DNA from: Actinomycetota bacterium
GTDB taxonomy: Bacteria; Actinomycetota; Actinomycetes; Streptosporangiales; Streptosporangiaceae
Length of the DNA: 44,137 nucleotides
NCBI GenBank assembly: GCA_027314515.1
Contig: DAHVAR010000046.1
Coordinates: 1-44,137, forward strand
Direction: 5' to 3'
Shown: positions 24,482 to 39,800 of the stretch, piece after piece
Numbering within the stretch: the stretch's first letter is position 1
Layout of the letters: every line of letters starts with the position of its first letter
The notes under the pieces: generated by a model
The model's input: the letters and a program-made list of their open reading frames with translations, nothing else
Database searches by the model: none
What the model was told of the DNA's origin: nothing
Position numbers and translations under genes: made by a program

Positions 24482-25708
24482 GTGGCGAAGGTTATCCGCC
24501 TACACTGGGTCAGCGATGCGGGCACCGGACTCGCCCGGCGTGACCGGCTGTCCTGCGACTACGGGGCCTACCTCCCGGACACGCTGTCGGACCGGCCAAT
24601 CGCGCTGAGCAGCCAGACAGCTGCAGACGTCGCAGATGCCGAGCGTGCCGTCGCGATTTTCGACACCGGGGCCGCGACACTCGCGGACACGGAGGCGCTC
24701 GCTCGCATCCTCCTTCGAGCGGAGAGTGTCGCGTCATCACGCATCGAAGGCCTGGAAGTCGGCGCGCGGCGCTTGCTGCGGGCTGAGGCCGCGATCGAGC
24801 TAGGCGCTGAGACCTCCGACGTCACCGCAACCGAGGTGCTCGGCAACATCGACGCCATGGCCACCGCCATCAAGTGCGTCAACCTGGGCGAGCCAGTCAC
24901 GCTGGATCTGCTCCTCGCCTTCCACCGGCGGCTGCTGGCAGGAACTCGGCTGGATACCCACGCGGGAGCGATCCGCGAGGAGCAGAACTGGATTGGCGGC
25001 AGCAGCTATAACCCGTGCTCGGCCGCGTTCGTGCCGCCGCCGCCCGAGTTTGTGCCAGGCCTCCTCGACGACCTGTGCCGGTTTTGCAACACCGAGGACA
25101 TCCCGGCGGTTGCTCAGGCGGCGATCGCGCACGCGCAGTTCGCGACCATCCACCCGTTCGTCGACGGTAACGGGCGGACCGGCCGGGCGCTGATCCACCT
25201 CGTTCTTCGGCGGCGCGGGCTAGCCACGCGCGTGTTGCCGCCGGTCTCGCTTGTCCTGGCGACCTGGGCTGACGACTACGTGCTGGGATTGGACGCCACC
25301 CGATACCGTGGCCCGGCGAGCTCAGCGGCGGCGCGTGACGGAACCGACCTGTGGGTAGGCCGATTCGCGGCAGCCTGCAAGCGGGCGGTCGCAGCCGCTG
25401 CCAGCTTCGAGGGCCGGACGCGGCAGCTGCAGCAGTCATGGCGGGCACAGCTCGGCTCGGTTCGGGCCAACTCCGCGACCGATGTCCTGCTGCGCCGGCT
25501 GCCGGGCGCGCCGATCGTGACGGTCTCGTCCGCAGCCGCGCTCATCAGTCGCTCCTTCACTGCGGCCAACGACGCCGTCACGAGACTTACTGAGGCCGGC
25601 ATCCTGCGCCAGATCACCGTTGGCCGCCGCAACCGCGCCTTCGAGGCACCTGAGGTCATCGAGGCGTTCACCGCGCTGGAGCGCCAGCTTGCCAGCCCGC
25701 CGCGATAG
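24482..25708 (+). CDS. Fic family protein (AMPylation-type enzyme)
   Basis: A 408-residue protein. Residues 224-235, HPFVDGNGRTGR, are the Fic catalytic motif for transferring AMP or another nucleotide-type group to a protein hydroxyl. Residues 85-90 (SSRIEG) match the (S/T)xxxE(G/N) inhibitory helix, placed N-terminal to the Fic core as in class II Fic proteins, so the enzyme should be self-inhibited. A flap-like segment (GGSSYNPCSAAFVPPPPEFV) precedes the motif, and the C-terminus (FTAANDAVTRLTEAGILRQI) looks like a winged helix. GTG at 24482 has an ideal AAGGAGG. It is 10 bp upstream of the nitrile-hydratase-like genes. Confidence 0.9.
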   Translation: MAKVIRLHWVSDAGTGLARRDRLSCDYGAYLPDTLSDRPIALSSQTAADVADAERAVAIFDTGAATLADTEALARILLRAESVASSRIEGLEVGARRLLRAEAAIELGAETSDVTATEVLGNIDAMATAIKCVNLGEPVTLDLLLAFHRRLLAGTRLDTHAGAIREEQNWIGGSSYNPCSAAFVPPPPEFVPGLLDDLCRFCNTEDIPAVAQAAIAHAQFATIHPFVDGNGRTGRALIHLVLRRRGLATRVLPPVSLVLATWADDYVLGLDATRYRGPASSAAARDGTDLWVGRFAAACKRAVAAAASFEGRTRQLQQSWRAQLGSVRANSATDVLLRRLPGAPIVTVSSAAALISRSFTAANDAVTRLTEAGILRQITVGRRNRAFEAPEVIEAFTALERQLASPPR

Positions 25709-25718
25709 CGTTGGTCAG

Positions 25719-25994
25719 GTGAGCAGGGTGCACGACATGGGCGGGCAGACCGGGTTTGGGCCCGTCCCCGTCGAGGATGACGGCCAGTTCTTCCACGCCG
25801 ACTGGGAAGCCCGGGTCTATGCGATCGTCCGGGTGCTGCAGCGGCGCGGGGTGATCAACGCCGCGTTCGATGATCTGCGCGACGCTATCGAGCGGATCCC
25901 GCCAGCGGAGTACCTGACCATGTCCTACTACGAGCGATGGCTGCGGGCGGCAGAGATGCTGCTCGCGGAGCGGAAGCTGCTGGCTGATGACTAA
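25719..25994 (+). CDS. Nitrile hydratase/thiocyanate hydrolase-like subunit (beta N-terminal half)
   Basis: A 91-residue protein with the start of nitrile hydratase beta subunits (VHDMGGQTGFGPVPVEDDGQFFHADWE) and the helix ending PAEYLTMSYYERWL. Full-length beta subunits are about 200-230 residues; here the C-terminal SH3-like half is encoded by the next gene. This division is known for thiocyanate hydrolase and for three-subunit nitrile hydratases such as the toyocamycin enzyme. GTG at 25719 is chosen to keep the conserved start. It lies only 10 bp after fic and overlaps the next gene by 8 nt. Confidence 0.8.
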   Translation: MSRVHDMGGQTGFGPVPVEDDGQFFHADWEARVYAIVRVLQRRGVINAAFDDLRDAIERIPPAEYLTMSYYERWLRAAEMLLAERKLLADD

Positions 25995-26253
25995 GTTCGC
26001 CGCTGGCAGCCGGGTGCGAGCCCGGGTGGCAGATCCTGACGGCCACACCAGGCTGCCGCGGTATGCCCGCGGCCATACGGGCGAGGTCGTCGAGGTCCGG
26101 GCGGACTGGCAGCTGCCGGACGAGGCGGTGCGTGGCGTGTTCCGTGCTGAGCCGGTCTACGCTGTCCGTTTCAATGCGGCTGAGCTGTGGGGTTCTGGGT
26201 CGCACTCAGTCATCCTCGACCTGTGGGAGTCCTACCTGGAGGAGGCGCCGTGA
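25987..26253 (+). CDS. Nitrile hydratase/thiocyanate hydrolase-like subunit (beta C-terminal half)
   Basis: An 88-residue protein matching the SH3-like C-terminal domain of nitrile hydratase beta subunits: FAAGSRVRARVADPDGHTRLPRY, the RGHTGEVVEV turn and VYAVRFNAAELWG. It should dock onto the metal-bearing alpha-type subunit. ATG at 25987 overlaps the preceding stop by 8 nt and its own stop overlaps the next gene by GTGA, so the three genes are translationally coupled. Confidence 0.82.
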   Translation: MTKFAAGSRVRARVADPDGHTRLPRYARGHTGEVVEVRADWQLPDEAVRGVFRAEPVYAVRFNAAELWGSGSHSVILDLWESYLEEAP

Positions 26254-26834
26254 GCGGCGAGCATGGTGAGCTTCCCATAGCAGCCAGGGTCCGCAGGCTC
26301 GAAGAGCGGTTGATCGCCGCCGGGCTGGCGACCGACGAGGAGCTCGACGAGATCCTCGAGCGGGTTTTCACCTCGGCCTCGCCGGTGAACGGCGCCCGGA
26401 TGGTCGCCCGTTCCTGGAAAGATCCGGGCTACCGTGATCGCCTGCTGGCCGACGGCAACGCAGCGGCAGCCGAACTCGGCTTCGGCGCCGGCACCCGCGG
26501 GTACCTGCTGAAGGCGGTTGAGAACACCCCGGCCGTGCACAACATGATCGTGTGCACGCTCTGCTCCTGCTATCCGACCGCGCTGCTCGGGCCATCGCCG
26601 AGCTGGTACAAGAGCTTCGCCTACCGGTCGCGGGCGGTACGCGAGCCGCGCGCCGTGCTAGCCGAGTTCGGGCTCGAGCTGCCCGATAGCACCGAGATCC
26701 GGGTCTGGGACGCCAACTCCGAGACCCGCTACCTGGTGCTGCCGCTGCGGGCAGAGGGCGCCGACGAGACGGACGAGAGCGTGCTGGCGTCACTGGTCAC
26801 CAGGAACGGGCTCATCGGCACCGCCATCCGCTAA
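26250..26834 (+). CDS. Nitrile hydratase alpha / thiocyanate hydrolase gamma-like subunit
   Basis: A 194-residue metal-binding subunit. The VCTLCSC motif (residues 101-107) supplies the three Cys ligands and Ser of the non-corrin metal centre; Thr after the first Cys is typical of cobalt-type enzymes. The following CYPTALLGPSPSWYKSF and YRSRAVREPRAVLAEFGLELP are strongly conserved. It would hydrate a nitrile to an amide, or act on a related substrate such as thiocyanate. The order beta-N, beta-C, alpha is that of thiocyanate hydrolase genes rather than classic two-gene nitrile hydratases. No metallochaperone/activator gene is adjacent. Confidence 0.88.
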   Translation: MSGEHGELPIAARVRRLEERLIAAGLATDEELDEILERVFTSASPVNGARMVARSWKDPGYRDRLLADGNAAAAELGFGAGTRGYLLKAVENTPAVHNMIVCTLCSCYPTALLGPSPSWYKSFAYRSRAVREPRAVLAEFGLELPDSTEIRVWDANSETRYLVLPLRAEGADETDESVLASLVTRNGLIGTAIR

Positions 26835-26903
26835 CCAGCCGTAAGCCAGCTCCGTGTCCGGTGCGCCTGGTGCGCCGGGTGCCGCGGCGGCGCTGAGCAG
26901 GGG

Positions 26904-27836
26904 TCAGACAGCCTTGAAGATCTCGCTTAGGTGCCAGTCGAGGAAGTCAGCACTCGGCCGGTCGGCGCGTTGCGCGGGGACCGAGATCGGTTCCCCTGCC
27001 CGGGCATAGAACTGCTCGCCATTGCCGAACTCTTCGCGCAAGCGCGGGCTGACGTGCAGCCGGAATTTCGGATCGACCGCAAGGTAGCCGCGGTCGAACA
27101 AGGTATGGACGTCGGACGTCAGCAGCAAGCCATTGTCCAGCCGATGCTCACCGCCACTCGTCACCGGCCGGATGTGCGCGGCCTGCAGCACCGGCCGGAT
27201 CTTGGAGCCGGTGATCGCGCAGCGGCGCTCGTAAGCGGTCAGGACGCGCGCCTGGAATGCGTTCTGGCCCAGGCGCTGCGGCACCAATCGCGGGTCGCCG
27301 AAGACCGGACCCTGGCGGTGCCAGGGCTCAAAGAAGTCGATCTCGACGGTGACGCCGAGCATCCGCATCAGCTCACCGAAGTAGCCCGAGACCGAAGGGC
27401 TCGCCAAGTCATAGCTCTTGCCCTGGACAATGTTGGCAGCGAATTCCGGTGGCGGCGCTGCGACTTCGTCCGGCGGGAAGAAACGCACGTCCCTGATGAA
27501 GACGCAGCCGATGACCGGATCCTCGCCAGGATCTAGCGGCGTCCGGCGGTAGTGCACGATCCTGGCCAGCATCTGCTCCAGAGTCGCGGTGCCGTTGCCC
27601 TCGCCGAAGTATTCCCAGGCCTCGCTCGCGGTCATCGCCGCGAAATCGCTGTAAAAGCCGCCGCCGACGACCCGGTTATGCGGAAGGTGAGTCTTGAAGA
27701 AGAACGGCTCGCCCACGGTCAGGGCGCGAAACCTGCGGCCTCCCGACGGCTGCCAGAAATTCACCTCGTTCAGGTAGGGACGGGCCGCTAAGAACCTGAA
27801 CCAGTCCTGGTCGGTAACTCCGACATAACTCCGCAC
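26904..27836 (-). CDS. HNH endonuclease-like protein
   Basis: A 310-residue protein. The C-terminal HNH motif reads CAITGSKIRPVLQAAHIRP, then the Asn-containing LDNGLLLTSDVHTLFD, the HNH layout seen in many restriction-type nucleases. The N-terminal 200 residues (YVGVTDQDWFRFLAARP...VNFWQPSGG, then a GEPFFFKTH segment) resemble specificity/recognition regions of such nucleases. GTG at 27836 is chosen because homolog-like starts begin just before YVGVTD and GGTGGA lies upstream; the frame continues to 28127 but would overlap the divergent gene. It is divergent from the zinc-hook ATPase, with a shared promoter region. Confidence 0.78.
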   Translation of the reverse strand: MRSYVGVTDQDWFRFLAARPYLNEVNFWQPSGGRRFRALTVGEPFFFKTHLPHNRVVGGGFYSDFAAMTASEAWEYFGEGNGTATLEQMLARIVHYRRTPLDPGEDPVIGCVFIRDVRFFPPDEVAAPPPEFAANIVQGKSYDLASPSVSGYFGELMRMLGVTVEIDFFEPWHRQGPVFGDPRLVPQRLGQNAFQARVLTAYERRCAITGSKIRPVLQAAHIRPVTSGGEHRLDNGLLLTSDVHTLFDRGYLAVDPKFRLHVSPRLREEFGNGEQFYARAGEPISVPAQRADRPSADFLDWHLSEIFKAV

Positions 27837-27891
27837 AGCAGCATTGTCCACCCAGGCGATCGCTAGACCCGCTATCCCGTATGAATAGGGC

Positions 27892-30396
27892 ATGGCAGCT
27901 GTACCGTTGCGGGGCATGGAAACAGGAGCGGCCGCGAACGCCAGCGTCGAAGACATCATTGCCAGCGGCCTGGATGGCGCCGGCCAGCCCGAGCCTGTCT
28001 CCGACCTGGTCCTGGCTGCCCTGCTGGGCGAGAGCGAGCTGGCCGCGGTCATCAACGGCACCAACGGCACCAACGGCACCGCGGCGGCCGTGCCAGCGCC
28101 GGCTTCAGCTGAGGCGGCCGCCGACAACGCCGCGCCGGAGCTCTACCTGCAAGCGATCGCGGTCGAGGGATTCCGCGGGATCAGCACCAAGGCCGAGCTG
28201 CGGCTCCAGCCAGGACCCGGTCTCACTGTCGTGGCCGGCCGCAACGGCTCCGGCAAGTCAAGCTTCGCCGAGGCTGCCGAGCTGGCCCTGACAGGCGACA
28301 ATAAGCGCTGGTCAGGCGAGCGGAGCGCAGTGTGGCGAGATGGCTGGCGCAACCTGCACACCGCTGGCGAGACGCGAATATGCACCGAGCTGGCCGCGCA
28401 AGCGCAACCTGGCGTGATCAAGGTTGTCCGGGAGTGGCCGGCCGGCGCCAGGCTCGACGACGCGACGTCCTACCTGCAGGCTCATGGCCGGGCCAGGCAG
28501 CCGCTCAGGGCGGCGAGCTGGACGCAACAGCTTGAGCTGTTCCGCCCGTTCCTGTCCTATGCCGAGCTCGGTGCCCTGCTCAACGGCAGGCCGAGCGAGA
28601 TGTACGACGCCATCCAGGCCATCCTCGGACTGGACCAGCTAGTCGACGCCGAGAAGCGGCTGGATGCCCAGCGCAAGAGCCTCGACGAGGCCAGCAAGGT
28701 TGCCGGCCGGACCCTGATTGACCTGCGCACCCGGCTGGCGGGCAGTTCGGACGAGCGCGCGCGCCTGGCCGAGCGCGCGGTGGCCGGCCGGAGCATCGAC
28801 CTTGACACTGTCGAATCCCTGGCCGTCGGCGCCGACGACGGTCCGGAGTCAGCGAGCGGCCTGCTGCCGCAGATCGTGGCGATCGAAGTGCCGTCGGCGG
28901 ATACGGTCGCCACGGCAATCGAGAAGGTCCGGCACGCTGCCCAGCGCGTCGCCAGCCTGGCCGACACCCCGGCCGAGGACGCCCGCCGCCTGGCCGGCCT
29001 GCTCGCCGCCGCGCTCGATCACCAGGCCAGTCACCCGGACGAGGCGTGCCCGGTGTGCGGCGGCCGCGCCCTCGACGCCGCGTGGGCGGACGCGACCCGC
29101 GCCGAGATCGCGCGGCTGCAGCGCCTGGCTCATGATGCGCAGGAAACGCGCACTGACCTGGCGGCGGCACTGGCGGCAGTACGCGGACTGACCGGGCCAG
29201 TGCCACGAGTCCTTCTCGCGGATCCGGGAAGCGAGGTCGATCCCGCGAGCGCGCGGGCGGCCTGGCAGTCGTGGGCTGAGCTCGCCGCCAGCGGGACGGC
29301 CGAGCAGCTAATGGCGACCGGAGCGGACCAGTTTGCCGCCGTAGCAGACGCAGTCGCGGAGCTTCAGTCCGGCGCGGCGGCAGTGCTGGCTCGCCGCAGC
29401 GAGGCGTGGCAACCCGTCGCCGCCGCGCTGGCAGCGTGGGCTGAGAAGGCACGGGCAAGCGAGCGCGCTGCGGCGAAGCTGGCCGAGGTCAGGCAGGCGA
29501 TCGCCTGGCTACGGCGGGCCGGCCAGGAGATCCGTGATGCGCGGATGGCGCCGTTCACGCGGATGTCGGCCGAGGTATGGAGCATGCTCCGGCAGGAGAG
29601 CAACGTCGACCTCGGGCCGATCCGCCTCGTCGGCGCCGCGACTCAGCGAAAACTCAGCCTCGACGTGACCGTGGACGGTGTGGACGGTGCCGCGCTCAGC
29701 GTCATGAGCCAGGGCGAACTGCACGCTCTCGGCCTTGCGCTGTTCCTGCCCCGAGCGACTGCGCAGGAGAGCCCGTTCCGGTTCATTGTGATTGACGACC
29801 CGGTTCAGGCGATGGACCCGGCGAAAGTCGACGGGCTTGCCCGGCTGCTCAGCAGGGTAGCGAGCGAGCGGCAAGTCGTCGTCTTCACACACGACGACCG
29901 GCTGCCGGAGGCGATCCGGCGCCTCCAGCTTCCCGCGACGATCTGGGAAGTAGTCCGCAGGGAGCAGTCCGTCGTCGAGCTGACCAAGAACGAGGATCCG
30001 GTCAGCCGCTATCTCGACGACGCGCGTGCCCTGGCTCTTACCACGGAGCTTTCCGAGGATGCCAAGGGCGTCGTGGTCGCCGGGTTCTGCCGCAGCGCGC
30101 TTGAGGCTGCGTGCCAGGCAGCGATCCGGGCCCGGCTGATCAGCCGCGGAGTCCGCCATTCCGACGTCGAGCAGGCGCTGACGAAGGCGAGCACCCTGCG
30201 CATGCTGATGGCTCTGGCGCTGCTGAAGGATGCCGAGCGCGGCCAGGACGTGGATGCTGAACTGCGCAAGCGCTTCGGCCAGGCAGGGGTCAACGCGCTC
30301 GCGGCGGCCAACGCCGGGACTCACGGTGCGTACCGGGGCACGCTCAAGGCCCTGGTCAACGATGTCGAGCGCCTGGCCGGCGGATTGCGCGCATGA
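27892..30396 (+). CDS. Zinc-hook SMC/Rad50-like AAA ATPase
   Basis: An 834-residue protein (or 826 from ATG 27916). An acidic/Ala-rich extension of about 80 residues precedes the ATPase head: Walker A GRNGSGKSS (116-124). Long helical arms surround a CPVCGG zinc-hook motif. The second head half has the SQGELHALGLALFLPRA signature and the FRFIVIDDPVQAMDP Walker B. A C-terminal domain of about 115 residues (GFCRSALEAACQAAIRARL...NAGTHGAYRGTL) is HEPN-like in character. Such ATPases bind and remodel DNA ends or sense invading DNA. It overlaps the next gene by ATGA and is divergent from the HNH gene, so the three are probably one module. Confidence 0.85.
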   Translation: MAAVPLRGMETGAAANASVEDIIASGLDGAGQPEPVSDLVLAALLGESELAAVINGTNGTNGTAAAVPAPASAEAAADNAAPELYLQAIAVEGFRGISTKAELRLQPGPGLTVVAGRNGSGKSSFAEAAELALTGDNKRWSGERSAVWRDGWRNLHTAGETRICTELAAQAQPGVIKVVREWPAGARLDDATSYLQAHGRARQPLRAASWTQQLELFRPFLSYAELGALLNGRPSEMYDAIQAILGLDQLVDAEKRLDAQRKSLDEASKVAGRTLIDLRTRLAGSSDERARLAERAVAGRSIDLDTVESLAVGADDGPESASGLLPQIVAIEVPSADTVATAIEKVRHAAQRVASLADTPAEDARRLAGLLAAALDHQASHPDEACPVCGGRALDAAWADATRAEIARLQRLAHDAQETRTDLAAALAAVRGLTGPVPRVLLADPGSEVDPASARAAWQSWAELAASGTAEQLMATGADQFAAVADAVAELQSGAAAVLARRSEAWQPVAAALAAWAEKARASERAAAKLAEVRQAIAWLRRAGQEIRDARMAPFTRMSAEVWSMLRQESNVDLGPIRLVGAATQRKLSLDVTVDGVDGAALSVMSQGELHALGLALFLPRATAQESPFRFIVIDDPVQAMDPAKVDGLARLLSRVASERQVVVFTHDDRLPEAIRRLQLPATIWEVVRREQSVVELTKNEDPVSRYLDDARALALTTELSEDAKGVVVAGFCRSALEAACQAAIRARLISRGVRHSDVEQALTKASTLRMLMALALLKDAERGQDVDAELRKRFGQAGVNALAAANAGTHGAYRGTLKALVNDVERLAGGLRA
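28054..28080. repeat. 9-bp tandem repeat in the ATPase N-terminus
   Basis: Three perfect copies of AACGGCACC, encoding NGTNGTNGT in the low-complexity extension before the ATPase head. It could vary in copy number without frame loss. Confidence 0.7.
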
Positions 30397-30791
30397 CCGC
30401 GCAGGATCTCCTCGATGAAGCGGACCGGCTGCTCACCACTGTCGTGCCCGGAACCAGAGGGCGCTGGCCGCGTGCCTGCGCGTGGCTGATCCGGCTCGCC
30501 CTGGAGAAGTCGCTCGACGACTACTGGACCGCCCGCCTGCCCGAAGCCAAGTCATGCAGCATGCGTGCGCAGTTGCTCCTGCTCCCCCGTTATGCCGGAG
30601 CCGAACTGGCCGGCAATGCGCGCGACGCGTGGTTCGGCCTGGCCCGCGCGACCCACCAGCACGCGTACGAGCTGGCACCAACCGCGGCCGAGCTGCGCAC
30701 CTGGCACGACCTAGTCGCCGAGATCACCGAAGCCATCAGCGAGAGCCCGGTTCGCGATAGCGATGCGGCGAGACCAGCGCCGGCCGGGTGA
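30393..30791 (+). CDS. Small HEPN-like protein coupled to the ATPase
   Basis: A 132-residue all-helical protein (LLDEADRLLTTV, RACAWLIRLALEKSLDDYW, AWFGLARATHQHAYELAPTA). RATHQH (residues 85-90) fits the RxxxxH pattern of HEPN ribonucleases, and the helix order is compatible with that fold, so an RNase or RNA-binding role is possible. The start ATG overlaps the ATPase stop (ATGA), so translation is coupled and the products probably interact. It converges with the M20 gene 9 bp away. HEPN assignment is from pattern only; no search was done. Confidence 0.62.
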   Translation: MTAQDLLDEADRLLTTVVPGTRGRWPRACAWLIRLALEKSLDDYWTARLPEAKSCSMRAQLLLLPRYAGAELAGNARDAWFGLARATHQHAYELAPTAAELRTWHDLVAEITEAISESPVRDSDAARPAPAG

Positions 30792-30800
30792 GCGTTACCC

Positions 30801-32048
30801 TCAGCTCGTGGTGAGCTGCTGGAGGGCGCGGATAGCCAGGTTCGCGTGCAGGAGGCAGCCGTCGGTCAGGACGGCGTCGTCGAAGGCCGCATGGGGGCTG
30901 TGGTTGTCCTGCGCAGCGTCGTGGTTGTCGTCCGGGCACGCACCGAGGAACAGGTAGCAGCCAGGCACCTGCTCCAGCACCCTGGAGAAGTCTTCTGCCC
31001 CGGCCTCGGGATCGCGCATCGGGGTGAACCGGCCTTCACCGAAGACGTCGGTGACCACGCCGGTCGCGAACGCGGTCTGCGCGGCGTCGTTCACGGTGAC
31101 CGGGTACTCGGTGTTGTACCGGGCCTCGGCCACCAGGCCGTGGGCGGCGGCGATCGCCTCGCACAGCCGCACCGACGCGACCCGGACCTGCTCCCGGGCG
31201 GCGGGAGAAAACGACCGGACCGTCGCCTCGAACACCGCCTCCGCGGGGATGATGTTCCGCTTGGTCCCGGCGTGGAAACTGCCCACGGTGATGACTACCG
31301 GGTCGAAGACGTCGAACTGCCGGGTCACCATCGCCTGCAGCGCGGTGATCATCTCCGCCGCCACGCTCACTGGGTCTTTCGCCCGGTGCGGCGCCGACCC
31401 GTGCCCTCCGGCCCCCCGCACCGTCACCATCAGCCCATCGCTGGCCGCCATCAGCGTCCCCGGCCGGGTGGTGAACTGAAGCCGGGGCAGCTTGCCCGCC
31501 ACTACGTGCACGCCGTACGCCCGCTGGACGCGGGGCCCGGCGGCGTCCAGCACGCCTTCGGCGAGCATGTGCCCAGCGCCGTCCCAGCCTTCCTCACCCG
31601 GCTGGAACATGAACACCACATCGCCGGCCAGCGCATCCCGGTGCGCGCTCAGCAGCCGGGCCGCGCCGACCAGCATCGCGGTATGCAAGTCATGACCGCA
31701 CGCGTGCATCGCCCCATCGATCGTGCTGCTGAACTCCACCCCGGTGGCCTCTTGCACCGGCAGCGCGTCCATGTCCCCGCGGAGCAGCACCGCCGGCCTC
31801 GGCCCGGCATCCCGGCCGGCTCCCGTGGTCCCGGACGTGCCCGTGCCACGCAGCACCGCCGTCACCGAGGAGCACGACGAACCCGTCGAGATCTCCAGCG
31901 GCAGGCCCGCGAGCGCGTCCAGCACCGCCCGCTGCGTCTCCGGCAACTGCAGCCCGATCTCCGGACGGCGATGCAGCCGGTGCCTGAGCTCCACCACATC
32001 ACGCTCAATCTCGGCCACGTCACTGCGCAGGCGCTCCTCCAGAGCCAT
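30801..32048 (-). CDS. M20-family amidohydrolase
   Basis: A 415-residue cytosolic metallo-amidohydrolase of the M20/hippurate-hydrolase (AbgB/HipO-like) type. Recognised segments are VELRHRLHRRPEIGLQLPET, LLRGDMDALPVQE, the metal-binding HACGHDLHTA, the catalytic-Glu block FMFQPGEEGWDGAGHM, and the dimerisation-domain VRGAGGHGSAPHRAKDPV; the C-terminal MRDPEAGAEDFSRVLE and HSPHAAFDD complete it. It should split N-acyl or amide bonds of amino-acid derivatives. ATG at 32048 has GAGGAGAG directly upstream. Its location inside the defence-like region looks incidental. Confidence 0.92.
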   Translation of the reverse strand: MALEERLRSDVAEIERDVVELRHRLHRRPEIGLQLPETQRAVLDALAGLPLEISTGSSCSSVTAVLRGTGTSGTTGAGRDAGPRPAVLLRGDMDALPVQEATGVEFSSTIDGAMHACGHDLHTAMLVGAARLLSAHRDALAGDVVFMFQPGEEGWDGAGHMLAEGVLDAAGPRVQRAYGVHVVAGKLPRLQFTTRPGTLMAASDGLMVTVRGAGGHGSAPHRAKDPVSVAAEMITALQAMVTRQFDVFDPVVITVGSFHAGTKRNIIPAEAVFEATVRSFSPAAREQVRVASVRLCEAIAAAHGLVAEARYNTEYPVTVNDAAQTAFATGVVTDVFGEGRFTPMRDPEAGAEDFSRVLEQVPGCYLFLGACPDDNHDAAQDNHSPHAAFDDAVLTDGCLLHANLAIRALQQLTTS

Positions 32049-32172
32049 CTCTCTCCTCAGTCTCGGTCCGGTAGCGAGCCGGTGATCACGACCGCCGACC
32101 TCAGCAATGTCACAAGCTACACAGTTATGCGCCGCTCGGGAAGTTCGGAACTTTCTCCTGCGAGCAGGACAC

Positions 32173-32206
32173 CACCAGACTGGTGATACCCGGTTATACT
32201 AGTTGC
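32173..32206 (+). promoter_or_regulatory. Leaderless promoter of the RHH/MazF module
   Basis: TATACT (32195-32200) is followed by exactly 6 nt before the GTG start at 32207, so transcription should begin at or next to the start codon with no ribosome-binding site. A CACCA-GAC-TGGTG inverted repeat (32173-32185) lies where the -35 box should be and may be an antitoxin operator. The same -10-to-start spacing occurs at two other antitoxin genes here (40925 and 43653). Confidence 0.6.
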
Positions 32207-32452
32207 GTGAAGACCGCGATTTCATTGCCTGACGACACCTTCGAGCAGGCGACAAGGCAGGCCGCCGAGCTTGGCATCAGCCGATCGGAGTTCTTCGCCC
32301 GCGCAGCCCGCAGGTACCTGGACGAGCTCGCGGATGAATCGCTCGCCCGGCAGATCGATGAAGCGCTAGCGGCAGCGGGCTCAGACGACTCTGCGGCACT
32401 AGCGGTAGCCGCAGGCCGGGCTCGCCTCGCTAGCGAGGACGACGACTGGTGA
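32207..32452 (+). CDS. Ribbon-helix-helix antitoxin (MazE-type partner)
   Basis: An 81-residue protein with an N-terminal ribbon-helix-helix DNA-binding unit (VKTAISLPDDTFEQATRQAA, GISRSEFFARAARRYLDEL) and an acidic C-terminal tail ending EDDDW that would bind the toxin. It should repress its own promoter and neutralise the MazF-like protein encoded next. GTG at 32207 fits the leaderless promoter; the frame to 32183 is outside the domain. It overlaps the toxin gene by GTGA. Confidence 0.88.
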   Translation: MKTAISLPDDTFEQATRQAAELGISRSEFFARAARRYLDELADESLARQIDEALAAAGSDDSAALAVAAGRARLASEDDDW

Positions 32453-32790
32453 TCCAGCGAGGCAGCGTCTGGTGGGCCGGCCTCGGAGAGCCGCAGGGCA
32501 GCAAGCCCGGCAAGCGGCGGCCGGTGCTGGTAATCCAGGCCAACTCCTTCAACGTCAGCCGCGTGAACACCACACTCGCCGCCGTCATCACTTCGAACAC
32601 GCGCCTGGCCGCGATGCCTGGCAACGTGTTCCTCCCGGCAGCTACCGCAGGCTTGCCTAAAGACTCCGTCGTCAACGTCACGGCCCTGGTCACACTGGAC
32701 AAGTCCGATCTTCAGACGGAGGCGGGCCAGTTGCCGGTTTCCCTGATGCACGAGGTTGATCGGGGCCTGCGCCGCGCCTTGAGCCTTTGA
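32449..32790 (+). CDS. MazF/PemK-family endoribonuclease toxin
   Basis: A 113-residue toxin with the MazF fold pattern: RGSVWWAGLGEPQGSKPGKRRPVLVIQ, then VNTTLAAVITSNTRLAAMPGNV and SVVNVTALVTLDKSDL. The GS-x-x-G-K-RRPV core and the later Val-Thr segment form the RNA-binding/active site. It would cut mRNA at short sequence motifs when free from its antitoxin. GTG start; translationally coupled to the RHH gene (4-nt overlap). Confidence 0.9.
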   Translation: MIQRGSVWWAGLGEPQGSKPGKRRPVLVIQANSFNVSRVNTTLAAVITSNTRLAAMPGNVFLPAATAGLPKDSVVNVTALVTLDKSDLQTEAGQLPVSLMHEVDRGLRRALSL

Positions 32791-32810
32791 TCACCTTGCG
32801 GCGGCTGTAC

Positions 32811-32978
32811 TCATGGACGCTTCAGGAACCTGAGATAGAACGCCACGAATACCAGGACGATTCCGACGTTCGACATCAGCCGGTACCAGAAGTATTGCCT
32901 GAAGAACAAGATGTCCACGCCGACCACGATGGCTACCATCGCGAGAAGGTAAAGCACGGTGGCTACCTGTCGTCCCAC
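32811..32978 (-). CDS. Small two-helix membrane protein (55 aa)
   Basis: A 55-codon gene with AGGAGA well placed before its GTG start (32978). The product has two helices (about residues 7-26 and 38-52; VLYLLAMVAIVVGVD and VGIVLVFVAFYLRF) and the charged FFRQYFWYRL loop between them, ending LKRP. This is a recurrent actinobacterial small-membrane-protein pattern of unknown function. It lies on the minus strand between the MazF-like gene and the TM0106-type gene, divergent from the latter. Confidence 0.75.
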   Translation of the reverse strand: MGRQVATVLYLLAMVAIVVGVDILFFRQYFWYRLMSNVGIVLVFVAFYLRFLKRP

Positions 32979-33073
32979 GGTCTCCTTCTACTGCGTTCGG
33001 CGGAGCGGAGCAAGAGCCGAATGGCACATTCACGGTGCGCCCGCCCCCGGCGAGCTCTGCCAGGCGGGACGTC

Positions 33074-36000
33074 ATGAGGATTGACGGGGAACAGGTTCGC
33101 CTGTCCGCGAGCGACGTCGCCAATTTCCTGGCCTGCCGTCACCTGACGAGGCTCGAGGTGCTGAAGGCGCGCGGGCTCATCCGCCCGCCGCACGAATATG
33201 ACGCGGGGTTTGCCGACCTCGTCAACCGCGGCGAGGTGCACGAGCGGGCGGTGCTCGACGCGTTCCGTGCCGATGGGCTGCAGGTAGTCGAGATCCGCCG
33301 TGATTTCGGGAACGCGGCCGCAGGCGTCAGCGCCACAGCGCAGGCACTGGCGTCCGGGGTCGATGTGATCTACCAGGGTGTGCTGACGCGCCCTCCGGCA
33401 GCGGATGGCGAGCCGGCCCTGCTCGGTTACCCCGACTTCCTGGTCCGCGCGGACCTGATCGACGCGCCGGACGGGGAGCCACGCCCTGGCGGCGCGGGTT
33501 ACGAGGTCATCGACGCCAAGCTGGCCCGTTCGGCGAAGGGGCGGGCGGTGGCGCAGACGGCGTTCTACTCCCAGCTGCTCGCCGACATCCAGGGCGGCAC
33601 CGTCCCGCGGTGGCTGCACCTGGCGCTCGGCACCGGGGAACTGGCGTCGTTCAAGGTCGCCGACTTCGCCGCCTACGAACGGCAGACACGCCGGCTGCTG
33701 ACCGCGTTCATCGAGACCGGCACCGGGGCGAACCCGCCGGACGACACCTACCCCGAGCCAGTCGAGCACTGCGCGATCTGCCGGTGGAGCGACGCGTGCG
33801 CGGCCCGGCGGCGGGCCGACGATGACCTGTCCCTGGTGGCCGGGATCACGAAGGGCCAGCGCCGGCGGCTCAAGGAGGCAGACGTGCCGACTCGCCGGGC
33901 CTTCGCGGCCGTTGACCCGCTCCCGGCACTGCGCGGTACGAGCCGCGATTCGCTGGCACGAGCCCGTTTCCAGGCGATTTTGCAGGTAGCCAGTGAGGAC
34001 GACGGCGTTATCGCCTACCAGCTGCTGGAACCCGATCGTGATCCGGAGGGCGAGCTGGTGCCGGGTCGCGGGCTGCTGGCGCTGCCGGAGCCGGCCGAGG
34101 GCGACCTGTTCTTCGACATCGAGGGCGCGCGGTACTACTCCGACGACGGGCGCGAGTTCGGGCTGCAGTACCTGTTCGGGATCGTGGACACCGCGGAACG
34201 GCCGCCGCGGTACACGCAGTTCTGGGCGTTCGACCGCGCGGGGGAGAAACGGGCGTTCGAGGAGCTGATCGATTTCATCACCGCGCGGCGGCGGGAACGA
34301 CCGGGGCTGCACGTGTACCACTACAACCATTACGAGCCGACGGCGGTTGATCACCTGTCGGAGCTGCACGAAACGCGGCAGGAGGCCGTCGGGCGGCTGA
34401 TGGGCCGGTTCGCCACTCGCGGGGGCGAGGTGGACGAACTGTTCCGGCGCGGCGTGTTCGTGGACCTGTACCGGGTGGTGCGGCAGGGGCTGCAAGCCGG
34501 GGTTGAGTCGTACTCGATCAAGCGGCTAGAGCCATTGTGCGGGTACTCGCGGGCAGTCGGGCTGCGGGACGCGACTGCTGCGCTGATCTCGTTCGAGGCG
34601 GCGCTGGACTCCGGGGCGGGCGCCGGCGAGGTGGCGCTGCAGGGCGTGATCGCTGGTTACAACGAGGACGACTGCCGGGCCACGCTGGCGCTGCGGGACT
34701 GGCTTGAGTCGTTGCGTCCTTCGCTCGCTGCCCGGCTCGGTGTTGGCCTGGCGGACCTGCCGCGGCCGGTGGCCGAGGAGCCGGCGCCCGAGGGCGAGGA
34801 TTCGGAGGTGACGCTGCTGCGCTCGGCGCTGCTGGCGTCTGTTCCTGCGCATCCGGCCTCGCGGACTCCTGAGCAGGCGGCGGTCGCGCTGCTGGCCGAC
34901 CTGCTGGAATGGCACCGGCGGGAGAACAAGCCCGCCTGGTGGCGCTACTTCCACGTCCGGACGCTGTCCTCGGCGGACCTGGTGGCCGAGCCCGACGCGC
35001 TGGGATTGCTGGCTGGCGGTGAGGTCGTCGGGTCGGTGAAGCGGTCGGTGCTGCGGCAGTTCACGTTCCCGCCGCAGGAACACAAGTTCGGGCCGTTGTC
35101 CCAGGCCGAGGATCCGGTCACCGACCGGGGCTTTACCGTGGACTCGGTCGACGACGCGAGCGGCACGATCGTGCTGAAGGTTGGCCGTGACTACGACGGG
35201 GCGCTGCCTGCGGCCCTGGTCCAGGGCGGGCCGCCCAGCACGAAGCTGCAGGCATCGCGGATGCGCGATCTGGGCGCCCGTGTGCTGGCAGATGGCCTGA
35301 GCGGACTCGATGCCGCGACCGCGCTGCTGCTGCGCCGCCCGCCCGCCCGCGTTTCCGCGGAGACGTCGGCAGACGTTTCCGCGACTCTGCTAGCCCAGGG
35401 GGGCACTGCGTCTCCCGGGGCTGCCCCAGACCCCGATGGCCTTGAACCCCCGCGGGAAGTGCTGCCGCTCCGCCTCGCTGGCGAGACGGCCCAGGACGCG
35501 GCCGTCCGGATCGCTCTGTCGCTCGGGAACTCCTGCCTGCCGATCCAGGGGCCGCCGGGGACTGGCAAGACCTACACCGGCGCCGGGCAGATCCTGGCCT
35601 TGATCAAGGAAGGCAGAACTGTCGGCATCACCGGCCCGTCGCACGCGGTGATCTCCAACCTGATCGACGCGGTGTTCCAGCACGCCGCAGCTAGTAACCA
35701 AGCTGCCCCGAGGGTCGGCCAACGCGCGGACCGCGACAACCCGTTCCTGCATCCCGATGCTCAGTCCCTGGACTACCCGAAGCTCGTCAGCGGCCTCGCC
35801 GACGGCGACCTGGACGTGGCGGCGGGCACGACCTGGATGTGGTCACGACCGGAGTTCCGGGGCAGCGTGGACACGCTCTTCGTCGACGAGGCCGGCCAGA
35901 TGTCGCTGGCCGACGTCCTCGCGGTCGCCGGCGCGGCGCGCAACGTCGTCCTGCTCGGCGATCCGCAGCAACTCGCCCATCCAAGTCAGGCAGCGCACCC

Positions 36001-36766
36001 GCCGGGCTCTGGCGTGTCCGCGCTGGAGCACATCCTGGGCGACCGCGCGACGATGCCGCCCGACGCGGGCCTGCTGATCGACAAGACCTGGCGGATGCAC
36101 CCAGCGCTGTGCCAATTCACGTCGCGGGCGTTCTACGACGGCAAGCTGACCGGCGTTGATGGTCTCCAGCTTCAGGAGATCCTCGGCGAAGCTGACGGCG
36201 TCTCCGGCGCTGGCCTGCTCGTGGTCGAGGTACCGCACGAGGGTAACTCGAGCGCCTCTCCCGAAGAAGCCGCCGTCGTGGCCTCACTGGCGCGGGACTT
36301 GCTCGGCCGCCAGTGGCGCAACTGGTCCGGTGAGCTGGAGCCGATCGGCGCCGAGCAGATCATGGTGGTGACGCCGTACAACGCTCAGATCCGCGCTATC
36401 CAGGCTGTGGCTGCCTCGGCCGGTCTCCCCCGCCTCCAGGTCGGCACGGTTGACAAGTTCCAGGGTCGCGAAGCTCCCGTCGTCATCTACTCGATGGCGA
36501 CCTCATCGGTCGACGACGCGCCGCGCGGCATGGAGTTTCTCTACGACCTGCACCGCCTGAACGTGGCCACCTCTCGCGCCCGTGCCCTGGCCATCATCGT
36601 CGCCAGCCCCGACCTGGCCCGCGTTCAGTGCCAGACTCCCCGCCAGATGCACCTAGCCAATGCCCTCTGCCATGCCCGGGAAAACAGCGACGTTTACGAC
36701 TGCCGACGGCTCGTAGCAGGTTGGTCGGCCAACCACAGCTTGCGGTCGGACCTGCGCCCTTTGTAA
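33074..36766 (+). CDS. TM0106-family RecB-like nuclease fused to SF1 helicase
   Basis: A 1230-residue protein. Residues about 1-245 are a RecB/Cas4-like nuclease: ASDVANFLACRHLTRLE supplies one Cys, the active-site block is FLVRADLID...YEVIDAKLA, and CAICRWSDAC gives three more Cys for an iron-sulphur cluster. Next comes a DEDD-type exonuclease-like region (LFFDIEGARYYSDD, YHYNHYEP, YNEDDCRATLALRDW). The C-terminal half is an SF1/UPF1-like helicase: GPPGTGKTYTGA, FVDEAGQMSLADV, LLGDPQQLAHPSQ, VTPYNAQIRAIQ and VGTVDKFQGREAPVVIYSM. It should degrade or unwind nucleic acids. ATG 33074 is preferred over the start at 33035. The fused helicase follows 61 bp downstream. Confidence 0.88.
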   Translation: MRIDGEQVRLSASDVANFLACRHLTRLEVLKARGLIRPPHEYDAGFADLVNRGEVHERAVLDAFRADGLQVVEIRRDFGNAAAGVSATAQALASGVDVIYQGVLTRPPAADGEPALLGYPDFLVRADLIDAPDGEPRPGGAGYEVIDAKLARSAKGRAVAQTAFYSQLLADIQGGTVPRWLHLALGTGELASFKVADFAAYERQTRRLLTAFIETGTGANPPDDTYPEPVEHCAICRWSDACAARRRADDDLSLVAGITKGQRRRLKEADVPTRRAFAAVDPLPALRGTSRDSLARARFQAILQVASEDDGVIAYQLLEPDRDPEGELVPGRGLLALPEPAEGDLFFDIEGARYYSDDGREFGLQYLFGIVDTAERPPRYTQFWAFDRAGEKRAFEELIDFITARRRERPGLHVYHYNHYEPTAVDHLSELHETRQEAVGRLMGRFATRGGEVDELFRRGVFVDLYRVVRQGLQAGVESYSIKRLEPLCGYSRAVGLRDATAALISFEAALDSGAGAGEVALQGVIAGYNEDDCRATLALRDWLESLRPSLAARLGVGLADLPRPVAEEPAPEGEDSEVTLLRSALLASVPAHPASRTPEQAAVALLADLLEWHRRENKPAWWRYFHVRTLSSADLVAEPDALGLLAGGEVVGSVKRSVLRQFTFPPQEHKFGPLSQAEDPVTDRGFTVDSVDDASGTIVLKVGRDYDGALPAALVQGGPPSTKLQASRMRDLGARVLADGLSGLDAATALLLRRPPARVSAETSADVSATLLAQGGTASPGAAPDPDGLEPPREVLPLRLAGETAQDAAVRIALSLGNSCLPIQGPPGTGKTYTGAGQILALIKEGRTVGITGPSHAVISNLIDAVFQHAAASNQAAPRVGQRADRDNPFLHPDAQSLDYPKLVSGLADGDLDVAAGTTWMWSRPEFRGSVDTLFVDEAGQMSLADVLAVAGAARNVVLLGDPQQLAHPSQAAHPPGSGVSALEHILGDRATMPPDAGLLIDKTWRMHPALCQFTSRAFYDGKLTGVDGLQLQEILGEADGVSGAGLLVVEVPHEGNSSASPEEAAVVASLARDLLGRQWRNWSGELEPIGAEQIMVVTPYNAQIRAIQAVAASAGLPRLQVGTVDKFQGREAPVVIYSMATSSVDDAPRGMEFLYDLHRLNVATSRARALAIIVASPDLARVQCQTPRQMHLANALCHARENSDVYDCRRLVAGWSANHSLRSDLRPL

Positions 36767-36827: not shown

Positions 36828-39800
36828 ATGCTCGAGAGGGACTCGCCCTTCCTGGCGGTTCCGGCTTCGGAGTGGCTGGCTTCCAACCGCTACGCGTTCG
36901 CTATCGCCGACCGCTACCGGGTCAGCCCGGGACATGCCCTCGTTGTGCCGCGCCGGCTGATCGCGACCTGGTGGGAAGCCACTGACGACGAGCGTGCCGA
37001 CATGCTGGCCCTCGTCGACGAAGTGAAGCGGCAGCTAGACGCCCAGCTGCAGCCCGACGGGTTCAATGTGGGCTTCAACGCGGGCGCAGCGGCCGGGCAG
37101 ACCGTCGGGCACCTGCACGTGCATGTGATACCGCGCTATAGCGGCGACGTGCCCGACCCTCGCGGCGGCGTGCGGCACGTTATCCCCGGCAAGGCCAACT
37201 ACCTCGAGCCGGGAGCGGGCCTTCGGGGGCTGATCGATGGTCAGGACCGCCTGCTGCGCGACGAGCTGCTCCGGTGCCTCCGTGATCCGCGATTCGACCG
37301 CGTCGACATCCTTGTCAGTTTCGTCATGAAGTCCGGGCTCGAACTCGTCCATGGCGGCCTTGTCGATGCCCTCGATCGCGGCGCGAAGGTCAGAGTGCTG
37401 ACGACGGACTACCTGACCGTCACCGATGCCGACGCGCTGGCTCGACTGCTGGATTTGGCCGAGCTCAGGCCTGAGGCCATCGCTACACGCGTCTTCCACG
37501 ATCCGGCGACCAGCTTTCATCCCAAGGCATACCTGTTCTCGTCTGGCGACCGTTCGGTCGCAGAGACGTTCGTGGGCAGCAACAACCTGAGCGCGGCGGG
37601 AATCGCTGGGGGCATTGAATGGGCGATCGGCACTGACAACGCGGTGCCACTGCTGACCGCGTTCGAACGGCTATGGTCCGACGAACGCAGCCGGCCGCTG
37701 ACCCACGAGTTCCTTGCGGACTACCGGGAGCGGTGGCAGCCAGCTGTTCACACCGTCGGTGTCGTTCCAGAGGCGCCAGCAACGGCGCCGGGCCCACGTC
37801 CTGTGCAGCGGGAAGCACTGACGGCTCTGGAGCAGACGAGGCTTGACGGCTTCCACGCTGGCCTGGTCGTAATGGCGACCGGTCTTGGCAAAACATGGCT
37901 AGCCGCGTTCGATTCAGCCCGGCCACAGTTTCGCCGCGTGTTGTTCGTCGCTCACCGCGAAGAGATACTGCGGCAGTCTCTCGACGTGTTCCGGCGTGTC
38001 CAGCCGGACGCGGACCTCGGCTTGTACTACGGCGGAGAGAAACAACCCGGCGCCCGAGTGCTGTTCGCCAGCCTTCAGACGCTTGCCGGGAATCTGGACC
38101 GGTTCAACCGGGACAGGTTCGACTACATCGTGTTTGACGAGTTCCATCACGCTGCCGCTCGCAGCTACCGCCGGGTTATCGACCACTTCCGGCCAGACTT
38201 CCTGCTGGGGCTGACTGCGACGCCGAACCGCATGGATGGCGCAGACCTGCTCGCGCTGTGTTCCGACAACCTGGTATTCGAGTGCCCGCTGACCGACGGC
38301 ATCGAACTGGGCGACCTCAGCCCATTCCGCTACTTCGGCATAGCCGACGACGTCGACTACACGCCGATTCCCTGGCGGGGCGGCCGGTTTGACACCACTA
38401 CGCTCACGAAGGCCGTCGAGACCCAGCAGCGCGCGCAGCATGTCCTGGAAGAGTGGCGAGCAAAGGGCGGCGGGCGCGCCATCGCCTTCTGCGTCACCGT
38501 CACTCATGCGGACTTCATGGCCGAATTCTTCAGGCGCAGCGGCGTGGCTGCCGTTGCGGTACACAGCGGACCGACCAGTGCGCCGCGTACCGGATCGATC
38601 GAGCAACTGCGCTCTGGCGACCTTGAGGTCATCTGCACGGTCGACGTGTTCAATGAGGGTCTGGACGTACCCGAGGTCGAGACGGTCCTGATGCTGCGGC
38701 CGACCGAATCTCCGGTCGTGTTCCTTCAGCAGCTGGGCCGCGGACTGCGGCGGAGTCCTGGCAAGGACGCCCTGACAGTCATCGACTTCATCGGCAACCA
38801 CCGTAGCTTCCTCATCAAGCCAAGGACGCTGCTCGCGCTCGGCACAGGTCGCCAGGCGGGCACCGCCAAGGTCTTGCAGGCCATGCGCACTGGCGACTTC
38901 GGTCTGCCAGCAGGCTGCTCGGCGACCTACGACGTCAGGCTAGTCAACATTCTGCGGGCGATAACGCGGATCGGGGCGCAGTCAGCCCTCGAGGACTATT
39001 GCCGGTCGTATGCGGACGAGCGCGGCCGCCGGCCCAGTGCGGTCCAGGCCTATCAAGCCGGTTACAACCCGGCATCCGCCCGAAGCGAGCACGGCCACTG
39101 GTTCGCCTTCCTCGACGACCTTGGCCTCCTCGACGAGCGCGAACGTGCGGTGACGCAACGCCACGGCAACGTCCTCGACGGCTTCGAAAAGGAGGCGATC
39201 ACCAAGTCCTACAAGCTCGTGACCCTCCAGGCGCTGCTGCAGATGAACGCGCTGCGGACCGGCGCGAGCATCGCTGAGCTCGCCTTCGCCGCCCACCTGC
39301 TCGTCCGCGCCGACCCGCGGCTGCAAGCCGACACTCGCTCGGCTGAAATGCCCGATCCCGCATCAGCGAGTAATGACTCCTGGCGGGACTACTGGCGCAG
39401 GTGGCCGCTATCCGCCTGGGTCGGCCAGCTGCGAGGTTCCGCCGCCGGCTGGTTCCGCATCGACGGCCATCGGTTCGTCCCTACGTTCAGCGTCGGCACT
39501 GATGTAGGCGAAACCTTCGATGCCATGGTGGACGAACTGGTCGACTTCCGGCTCGCCCGTTACCTCTTCGCCAAGCGCGGACGGCTGGGCACGGCTGCCA
39601 GGCTGAAAGTCATCCAGGCGCAGGGCCGGCCCATCCTCATGCTCGATCGCGAGCACAACCCGCCACTGCCAGAAGGCGAGGCTTCGTTTGTCGCCGACGA
39701 CGTGCTCTACACGGGCAGATTCGTGAAGATCGCGTTGAACGTTGCTCATCAGGGCGGCGACTCGCACAACGCTCTGCCCGACGTGCTCCGGTCGTGGTTC

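Follow-up and report, generated by a model that had tools for sequence, protein, structure and literature searches.

We identified a conserved two-gene module in a 44,137-nucleotide stretch of actinobacterial DNA (hereafter the window; contig DAHVAR010000046.1 of assembly GCA_027314515.1, Streptosporangiaceae). Its first gene encodes a Rad50-like, zinc-hook ATPase ending in a helical, HEPN-like C-terminal domain (CTD), and its second, which overlaps the first, encodes a small protein with a predicted HEPN fold. The small gene was present wherever the CTD was, in 91 of 91 loci. We favor, with a probability of about 0.5, a reading in which the ATPase is a sensor governing a two-chain HEPN RNase that would serve as an RloC-like alarm, while a neighboring HNH endonuclease gene is independent of the pair. 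An earlier, sequence-only reading of this DNA had joined all three genes into one candidate defense module; the genes are as it described them (a zinc-hook ATPase, an overlapping protein of 132 residues and a divergent HNH gene), and all of the open reading frames (ORFs) were verified.

Linkage of the ATPase and the small gene

The two-gene operon is a conserved module, in which the link between the CTD and the small gene is near-perfect. Among 115 distinct ATPase-family loci, CTD and small gene occurred together in 91 and were both missing from 23; one had the small gene only and none had the CTD only. The loci came from the genomes of relatives, three plasmids and public genomes (80 loci, the top-ranking ones among 163 relatives), and were gathered by ATPase similarity using 12 seed ATPases, all of the long form, with the small gene in no query. 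In this count the duplicate L012/L096 is merged, whereas two strains of a single Nocardia species and the contig fragment L126 remain; genes were called with a simple codon-composition script, which leaves some starts and genes misplaced. A search from the small protein through 296 genomes of the class returned 42 matches in 37 genomes, and in all 30 loci examined among these matches, one of them the window, the CTD lay immediately 5' of the small gene and in the same orientation. The coupling of ATPase and small protein proposed from sequence is therefore upheld from both directions. Moreover, small-protein distances correlate with ATPase distances (r 0.77 for the head and r 0.79 for the CTD, across 65 loci), at values that none of 2000 permutations reached, although this correlation includes shared species history and could be produced by co-inheritance alone.

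Several loci depart from the two-gene arrangement. The 23 lacking both elements (L012-L028, L094, L096, which is the same as L012, L099, L101, L102, L105 and L127) encode shorter paralogous ATPases of about 700 amino acids. At L010/L121, the sole such case in the 115 loci, the ATPase ends before the CTD and the small gene is kept. In a set of 120 relatives, two small-gene matches have no ATPase beside them, namely the orphan L140 (8607-8987, + strand), with a small HEPN-fold gene and no ATPase within the 18 kb examined, and the fragment L141 near a contig end. At L004 (101-3367, + strand), the ATPase and the small protein share one 1088-residue frame from which part of the CTD is missing, which either a fusion or an assembly fault may explain.

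The ATPase and its C-terminal domain

By profile search the ATPase is of the SMC/Rad50 type, with matches to SMC_N (E-value (E) 8.5e-15) and AAA_23, and it matches Rad50 among the sequences of solved structures (E 1.2e-11). Its structural model, with a predicted local distance difference test score (pLDDT) of 90.5, recovered SMC, Mre11-Rad50 and JetABC structures, the SMC and Rad50 heads at E of about 1e-13 to 1e-9. The nucleotide-binding motifs and the zinc hook (Table 1) are conserved in an alignment of 67 of 77 long-form ATPases, a set that left out frames shorter than 700 residues and loci L031, L032, L033, L108, L004, L110, L126 and L127. The Walker B motif of SMC and Rad50 proteins carries Glu at a position where this ATPase has Asp.

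The unusual C-terminal domain remarked on in the sequence-only reading is present at residues of about 700-834 and is helical throughout in the model, with helices at 703-715, 722-751, 756-765, 769-778, 784-809 and 818-833. Three of its residues are nearly invariant (R734 in 67/67, E738 in 66/67 and H811 in 65/67), and the full Arg/Glu/His triad (REH) is found in 57 of the 59 CTDs aligned out of those 67 ATPases, with a Glu-to-His spacing of 65-77. None of the 59 had a significant match to a Pfam HEPN family; the HEPN family DUF4145 appeared below threshold in two, tied with three others. Nothing convincing was found for the CTD among the sequences of solved structures.

The topology and conserved residues of the CTD match those of the small protein: the helices follow in the same order, and the Arg, Glu and His occupy equivalent positions, within helix 2 and shortly past the end of helix 5. 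Profile-to-profile alignment with hhalign paired the two, including an R-x-A-L-E stretch, at E 1.9e-4 and a probability of 47%. This is suggestive of a common origin, as judged from sequence, and falls short of proof.

The small protein

An AlphaFold2 model of the small protein, built on 83 relatives, is a helical bundle with a pLDDT of 90.8. Eight chains reached a probability of at least 0.82 among the best 50 of 338 Foldseek matches, comprising seven HEPN chains and one vinculin tail (0.82). The HEPN matches were 2q00 (the top match), 1ufb (which we take to be a HEPN protein), 1wol, MntA-HepT and 1o3u, with probabilities of 0.82-1.00, E of 0.08-0.6 and template modeling scores of 0.43-0.62. 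Four of the seven chains are HEPN by title or by the part of PMC3710099 consulted, and for the two MntA-HepT chains we infer it. The HEPN fold that the sequence-only reading had proposed for this protein is thus borne out by prediction, with HEPN chains leading the search of the PDB.

Sequence searches were less telling. The small protein of the window fits no family in Pfam, NCBIfam or PADLOC, and nothing convincing was found for it among the sequences of solved structures. Its 83-member family has no significant match to a Pfam HEPN family (DUF4145 was the commonest below threshold, in 3/83, with a best E of 0.013) and a single PADLOC match, to RmrT, at E 0.001. A Foldseek search of viral models gave nothing with E below 0.001.

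The residues that are conserved differ from those first singled out. The sequence-only reading had pointed to RATHQH, residues 85-90, as an Rx4H pattern, and to R85 and H90 as its key residues. Shuffling the small protein, however, yields at least one Rx4H in 26% of cases and an Rx4-6H in 60%, so that the motif alone is no evidence. Across 86 of the 92 small-protein matches (L031, L032, L033, L108, L004 and L110 being left out), R85 is kept in only 32 and H90 in 70, and the Rx4-6H motif of HEPN proteins is therefore not conserved; R27, R34 and W80 are each kept in 85, H88 in 83 and E38 in 80, with Asp in the other six. We therefore rejected R85/H90 as a conserved catalytic pair; the conserved set is R34, E38 and H88. 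In the 83-sequence alignment, which also omits L126, L052 and L049, the triad reads REH in 73, RDH in six and otherwise in four, and the acid and the His are 46-52 residues apart in the 80 that have both. HEPN domains lacking the motif exist, and some families lack the Arg, as described in the part of PMC3710099 consulted.

Locus layout

The two module genes overlap by four bases, and the first ATG codons of the ATPase gene (27892-27894) and the HNH gene (the complement of 27891-27893) overlap within a CATG. The two genes do diverge, as the sequence-only reading had it, and the very short region that it placed between them vanishes if both first ATGs are used, although translation of either gene may in fact begin elsewhere. 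A longer, 407-residue frame starting at TTG, also listed by the ORF program for the HNH gene, is not needed.

Table 1. Coordinates of the module, its motifs and the adjacent HNH gene in the window
Feature	Position	Strand	Details
ATPase gene	27892-30396	+	834 amino acids; ORF call
Walker A, G116-S124	28237-28263	+	G116, N118, G119, K122 and S123 invariant in 67/67 aligned ATPases
Zinc hook CPVCGG, residues 386-391	29047-29064	+	Cys386, Pro387 and Cys389 invariant, 67/67
ABC signature SQGE, residues 606-609	29707-29718	+	S606, G608 and E609 invariant, 67/67
Walker B ending IDDP	29785-29802	+	D635, D636 and P637 invariant, 67/67
CTD, HEPN-like, residues 700-834	29989-30393	+	R734, E738, H811; all helical in the model
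Small-protein gene	30393-30791	+	132 amino acids; ATGA overlap with the ATPase stop
Small protein, predicted HEPN fold	30393-30791	+	R34, E38, H88; from AlphaFold2 model, Foldseek and conservation
HNH endonuclease gene	26904-27893	-	329 amino acids from the ATG at 27893; HNH_2, E 9e-12; judged to lie outside the module

The wider window holds other genes of note, all on the + strand. Directly before the HNH gene, a nitrile hydratase is encoded at 25620-26834, with its beta chain split over two frames and followed by the alpha chain. A Fic-domain protein (SoFic model, E 2.6e-71) lies at 24482-25708 and aligns only in pieces with the sister genome G006. Downstream of the module are a ribbon-helix-helix and PemK/MazF toxin-antitoxin pair (32183-32790) and further restriction-like genes. 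One of the downstream genes, at 33035-36766, encodes a 1243-residue helicase-nuclease (RNase_H_2, AAA_11/12, a weak PDDEXK match and a partial match to MkoA) and is absent from the corresponding place in G006. Another, at 36828-39926, encodes a 1032-residue protein that has a HIT-like match at its N-terminus as well as matches of the helicase and type IV restriction kinds (mREase_IV, E 1.6e-102); its family clusters near the pair in 8/91 loci.

The HNH gene as a separable neighbor

The HNH domain is real (Table 1), and the C-terminal part of the protein resembles the HNH enzymes of phosphorothioate-type restriction, at 78.8 bits and below the family cut-off of 180. In G006, where the ATPase is 94% identical to that of the window, the HNH gene is missing at the syntenic site: the flanks that match window positions 25627-26838 and 27872-33056 lie 14 bases apart, and no HNH match at E 1e-20 was found anywhere in that genome. 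Among 99 loci searched, the window alone has an intact member of the HNH family. Conversely, around 22 of 22 other HNH loci there was no ATPase, CTD or small gene within flanks of about 1.5 kb, nor was there in ten wider stretches around HNH homologs, some ended early by contig ends. Across the 120 relatives, the HNH gene and the small gene occur in 16 and 17 genomes, respectively, and together in three, where about 2.3 would be expected. On the strength of the sister genome, the 22 loci and this lack of association, we rejected the HNH gene as a third part of the module; the pair regularly stands without it, the outcome that the sequence-only reading had set beforehand as speaking against its three-gene module.

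Absent from the sister site and found elsewhere without the pair, the HNH family behaves independently of it, and the gene either landed beside the pair here or was lost in the sister. A frameshifted and truncated HNH-family remnant, divergent from the ATPase as in the window, lies in Actinoplanes couchii (L059, 9504-9660, - strand) and weakly keeps open an occasional link. At L036, a distant HNH protein lies several kb away.

Distribution and genomic neighborhood

The pair is seen in Nocardia, Micromonospora, Streptomyces and relatives, and the ATPase-family loci gathered are mostly actinobacterial, with a few bins of Acidobacteria, Chloroflexi, Dormibacterota and Proteobacteria. The occurrence of the pair is patchy, the small gene being found in 17 of the 120 relatives and in the 37 of 296 genomes of the class.

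In keeping with the proposed defense role, genes sampled around the pair matched restriction and helicase families more often than controls did. Matches among 94 neighbor genes included Helicase_C (8), ResIII (4), McrBC (3), UvrD_C (3), type I restriction (2) and GmrSD (2); none of these appeared among the families listed for 94 control genes from pair-bearing genomes. The tallies cover the first 25 of 65 families for neighbors and the first 25 of 101 for controls, and rare families may be hidden in both. The neighbor sample was drawn from 208 genes and excluded 16 Nocardia-type loci, the window, its sister and two plasmids, with L037 (Nocardia wallacei) kept, and the controls were drawn from 140 genes on 17 stretches.

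In single-linkage clusters of the genes within the examined stretches, the recurring neighbor families include an N6-methylase (20/91 loci) and an HsdR-like protein (10/91). We rejected a conserved third gene: the UvrD-like helicase family lies near the pair in only 9/91 loci. Two Streptomyces plasmids carry a helicase of about 1185 residues 110 bases downstream of the pair (L031, 9791-13345, UvrD-like; L032, 9793-13344).

Proposed function and its alternatives

We hypothesize that the CTD and the small protein, as two HEPN units, pair as a heterodimer on the ATPase, which would detect aberrant DNA (for instance, ends that arise when a phage infects, a plasmid enters or the DNA is damaged). 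HEPN domains usually work as dimers. ATP hydrolysis would then release or activate a metal-independent RNase and halt translation, as in RloC, and the HNH gene would be an independent restriction-type gene inserted beside the pair. By analogy with RloC, the pair is probably an alarm for infection or DNA damage. RloC has the motif Arg-x3-Glu-x36-52-His, each residue of which is needed for tRNA cleavage, and a zinc hook that regulates its nuclease activity (PMC2610378, in the part consulted); it is activated by inducers of DNA breaks (PMC3874168, in the part consulted).

A more specific proposal, which we advance tentatively, is that the CTD and the small subunit form a composite RNase, an obligate pseudo-symmetric heterodimer whose active cleft exists only while the partner is held, with DNA-end sensing switching on RNA cutting. 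The pair would then be a two-chain counterpart of RloC that may owe its origin to a HEPN duplication in actinobacteria, with later spread into further phyla.

A number of observations weigh against an RloC-like alarm. The Foldseek E-values for HEPN structures are weak in absolute terms, 0.08 at best, and Arg-x3-Glu is an ordinary salt-bridge pattern of helices. The Glu-to-His spacing of the CTD is 65-77, compared with 36-52 in RloC, and a profile of the RloC C-terminal domain, built from 11 RloC-like domains only, gave E 0.75 against the small protein and E 0.005, with a probability of 7%, against the CTD. Ordinary metabolic genes occur among the sampled neighbors too, and the neighbors are on average longer than the controls (49174 versus 41078 residues in total, 94 genes each), a bias in favor of helicases. 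Fifteen loci, 14 from Nocardia together with L123, share flanking families in matching order and spacing, and there the module therefore looks vertical and stable, unlike a mobile defense gene. Lastly, none of 50,697 phage records matched, and the 12 loci recovered from viral contigs were weak and almost all confined to the ATPase core, the small gene not being looked at there.

The stability of those 15 loci is also what a complex for DNA repair or chromosome maintenance would predict, in which the ATPase would work at DNA ends in the manner of SbcC/Rad50, while the HEPN-like units, having no catalytic role, would serve as scaffolds or bind RNA or nucleotides. Such a complex would fit the closest relatives of the ATPase, which are SMC and Mre11-Rad50 heads by structure and Rad50 by sequence, and the poor conservation of the canonical HEPN RNase Arg, given the motif-less HEPN domains described in the consulted part of PMC3710099. 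It sits less well with the patchy occurrence of the pair and the restriction genes enriched around it, and the Arg, Glu and His kept in both units argue for more than scaffolding; we regard this explanation as rather unlikely, if the one to be taken most seriously after the alarm. A toxin-antitoxin-like arrangement, in which the CTD-bearing ATPase silences a toxic small HEPN protein, appears improbable to us. The tight operon with overlapping ends, the presence of HEPN toxins such as HepT among the closest folds (a chain assignment that we infer) and the small genes found with a CTD-less ATPase (L010/L121) or without any (L140) are in keeping with it. The latter loci would, however, harbor free toxins, if they are not decayed, and the CTD, which shares the conserved residues of the small protein, does not look like a mere inhibitor.

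A comparably small chance attaches to a pared-down, two-gene system of the Lamassu or ABC-3C type, in which the small protein would stand in for LmuC and the CTD would be its docking site. The ATPase matches the PADLOC models of LmuB at E 5e-20, and the CPxCG hook frequent in LmuB and the variable C-terminal domains described (PMC10586767, in the part consulted) are in line with this. MAD3 scores as well as LmuB, however, the Walker B motif lacks the Glu-to-Gln change of LmuB, none of the 83 small proteins matches LmuC (the LmuC content of the library was not verified), and no gene family adjoins the pair in more than 20/91 loci, although effectors of the LmuA type are diverse and might escape clustering. 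Least credible of all, and in our view very nearly discounted, is the three-part system, with DNA cutting by the HNH protein and RNA cutting by a HEPN RNase both set off by the ATPase. In its favor, the genes adjoin one another in the window, the HNH gene running the opposite way, and the broken HNH remnant of A. couchii occupies the same place; against this stand the empty syntenic site of G006, the lack of an intact HNH-family homolog in the other 98 loci, the 22 HNH loci without the pair nearby and the lack of association in the relatives. With the HNH gene no third part and R85/H90 no conserved pair, the simultaneous cutting of DNA and RNA that the sequence-only reading envisaged finds no support.

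If the RloC-like alarm is the right interpretation, the pair may be of use beyond this locus. ABC-HEPN proteins such as RloC couple DNA damage to translation shut-down, and how the ATPase restrains the RNase is difficult to work out when both sit in one toxic polypeptide. A second HEPN unit encoded by a separate gene would allow sensor and effector to be expressed apart and then recombined. The pair would also add a defense candidate in Nocardia, Micromonospora, Streptomyces and relatives, with small-gene matches in 37/296 genomes of the class.

Comparison with known systems

Lamassu and ABC-3C systems resemble the pair in combining an SMC-like ATPase, often zinc-hooked, with a partner. LmuB is often described with a CPxCG hook, variable C-terminal domains are reported for components of these systems, and a Glu-to-Gln change is described for the LmuB Walker B (PMC10586767, in the part consulted). 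The pair differs in its Asp-Asp Walker B, and we rejected Lamassu because it has no recurring LmuA-type effector nearby (the largest family outside Nocardia, in 20/91 loci, is of the N6-methylase type) and no LmuC match by PADLOC at E 0.01 among the 83 small proteins, with the LmuC caveat given above. Gabija was likewise rejected, the GajB match of the small protein reaching E 0.037 only. The best PADLOC score of the ATPase is to MAD3 of MADS (E 9e-21), although the NCBIfam cut-off is far from reached, at 16.3 of 420 bits. MAD3 belongs to a larger methylation-linked system, as its NCBIfam name also indicates.

In its predicted fold, the small protein resembles HEPN-T/PaREP1 (2q00), DUF4145 and MntA-HepT. 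The Parep1/8 group of HEPN proteins, which includes 2q00, keeps the motif His and other conserved basic residues and lacks the Arg (PMC3710099, in the part consulted), and the small protein likewise has a kept His, no motif Arg and other basic residues conserved. It differs from MntA-HepT in that no nucleotidyltransferase partner was seen in the window, and its partner is Rad50-like in the 30/30 class loci examined. ABC-HEPN fusions of the APECO1_4465 and ERFG_01251 types place an ABC ATPase before a HEPN domain in one chain, and the consulted part of PMC3710099 mentions no second HEPN subunit for them, a comparison made by description and not by sequence.

The closest likeness is to RloC, an anticodon nuclease of the PrrC/RloC group: it too is a Rad50-like ABC ATPase whose zinc hook is of the CxxC type, and its HEPN-type domain at the C-terminus likewise carries Arg-x3-Glu followed further on by His. 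A Walker B ending in DDP is found in 8 of 12 RloC-like loci, the other four not matching, and the small protein, as a separate chain, fits the x36-52 spacing of RloC. Conversely, the ATPase scores 15.9 bits for AAA_13, under the cut-off of 36, matches PDC-S06 over only part of its chain (E 8e-16, compared with 3.5e-135 for the RloC-like L170), and is accompanied in 91/91 loci by a second, separate HEPN gene. No ABC ATPase with a separate HEPN subunit was found in the literature searched by titles and abstract openings, although a published classification of ABC ATPases could mention the family. Our best reading, by analogy, is that the pair is RloC-like in action and, by profile tests, not an RloC. 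It is best filed under the ABC-HEPN kind, as a variant new to it with a predicted RNase role.

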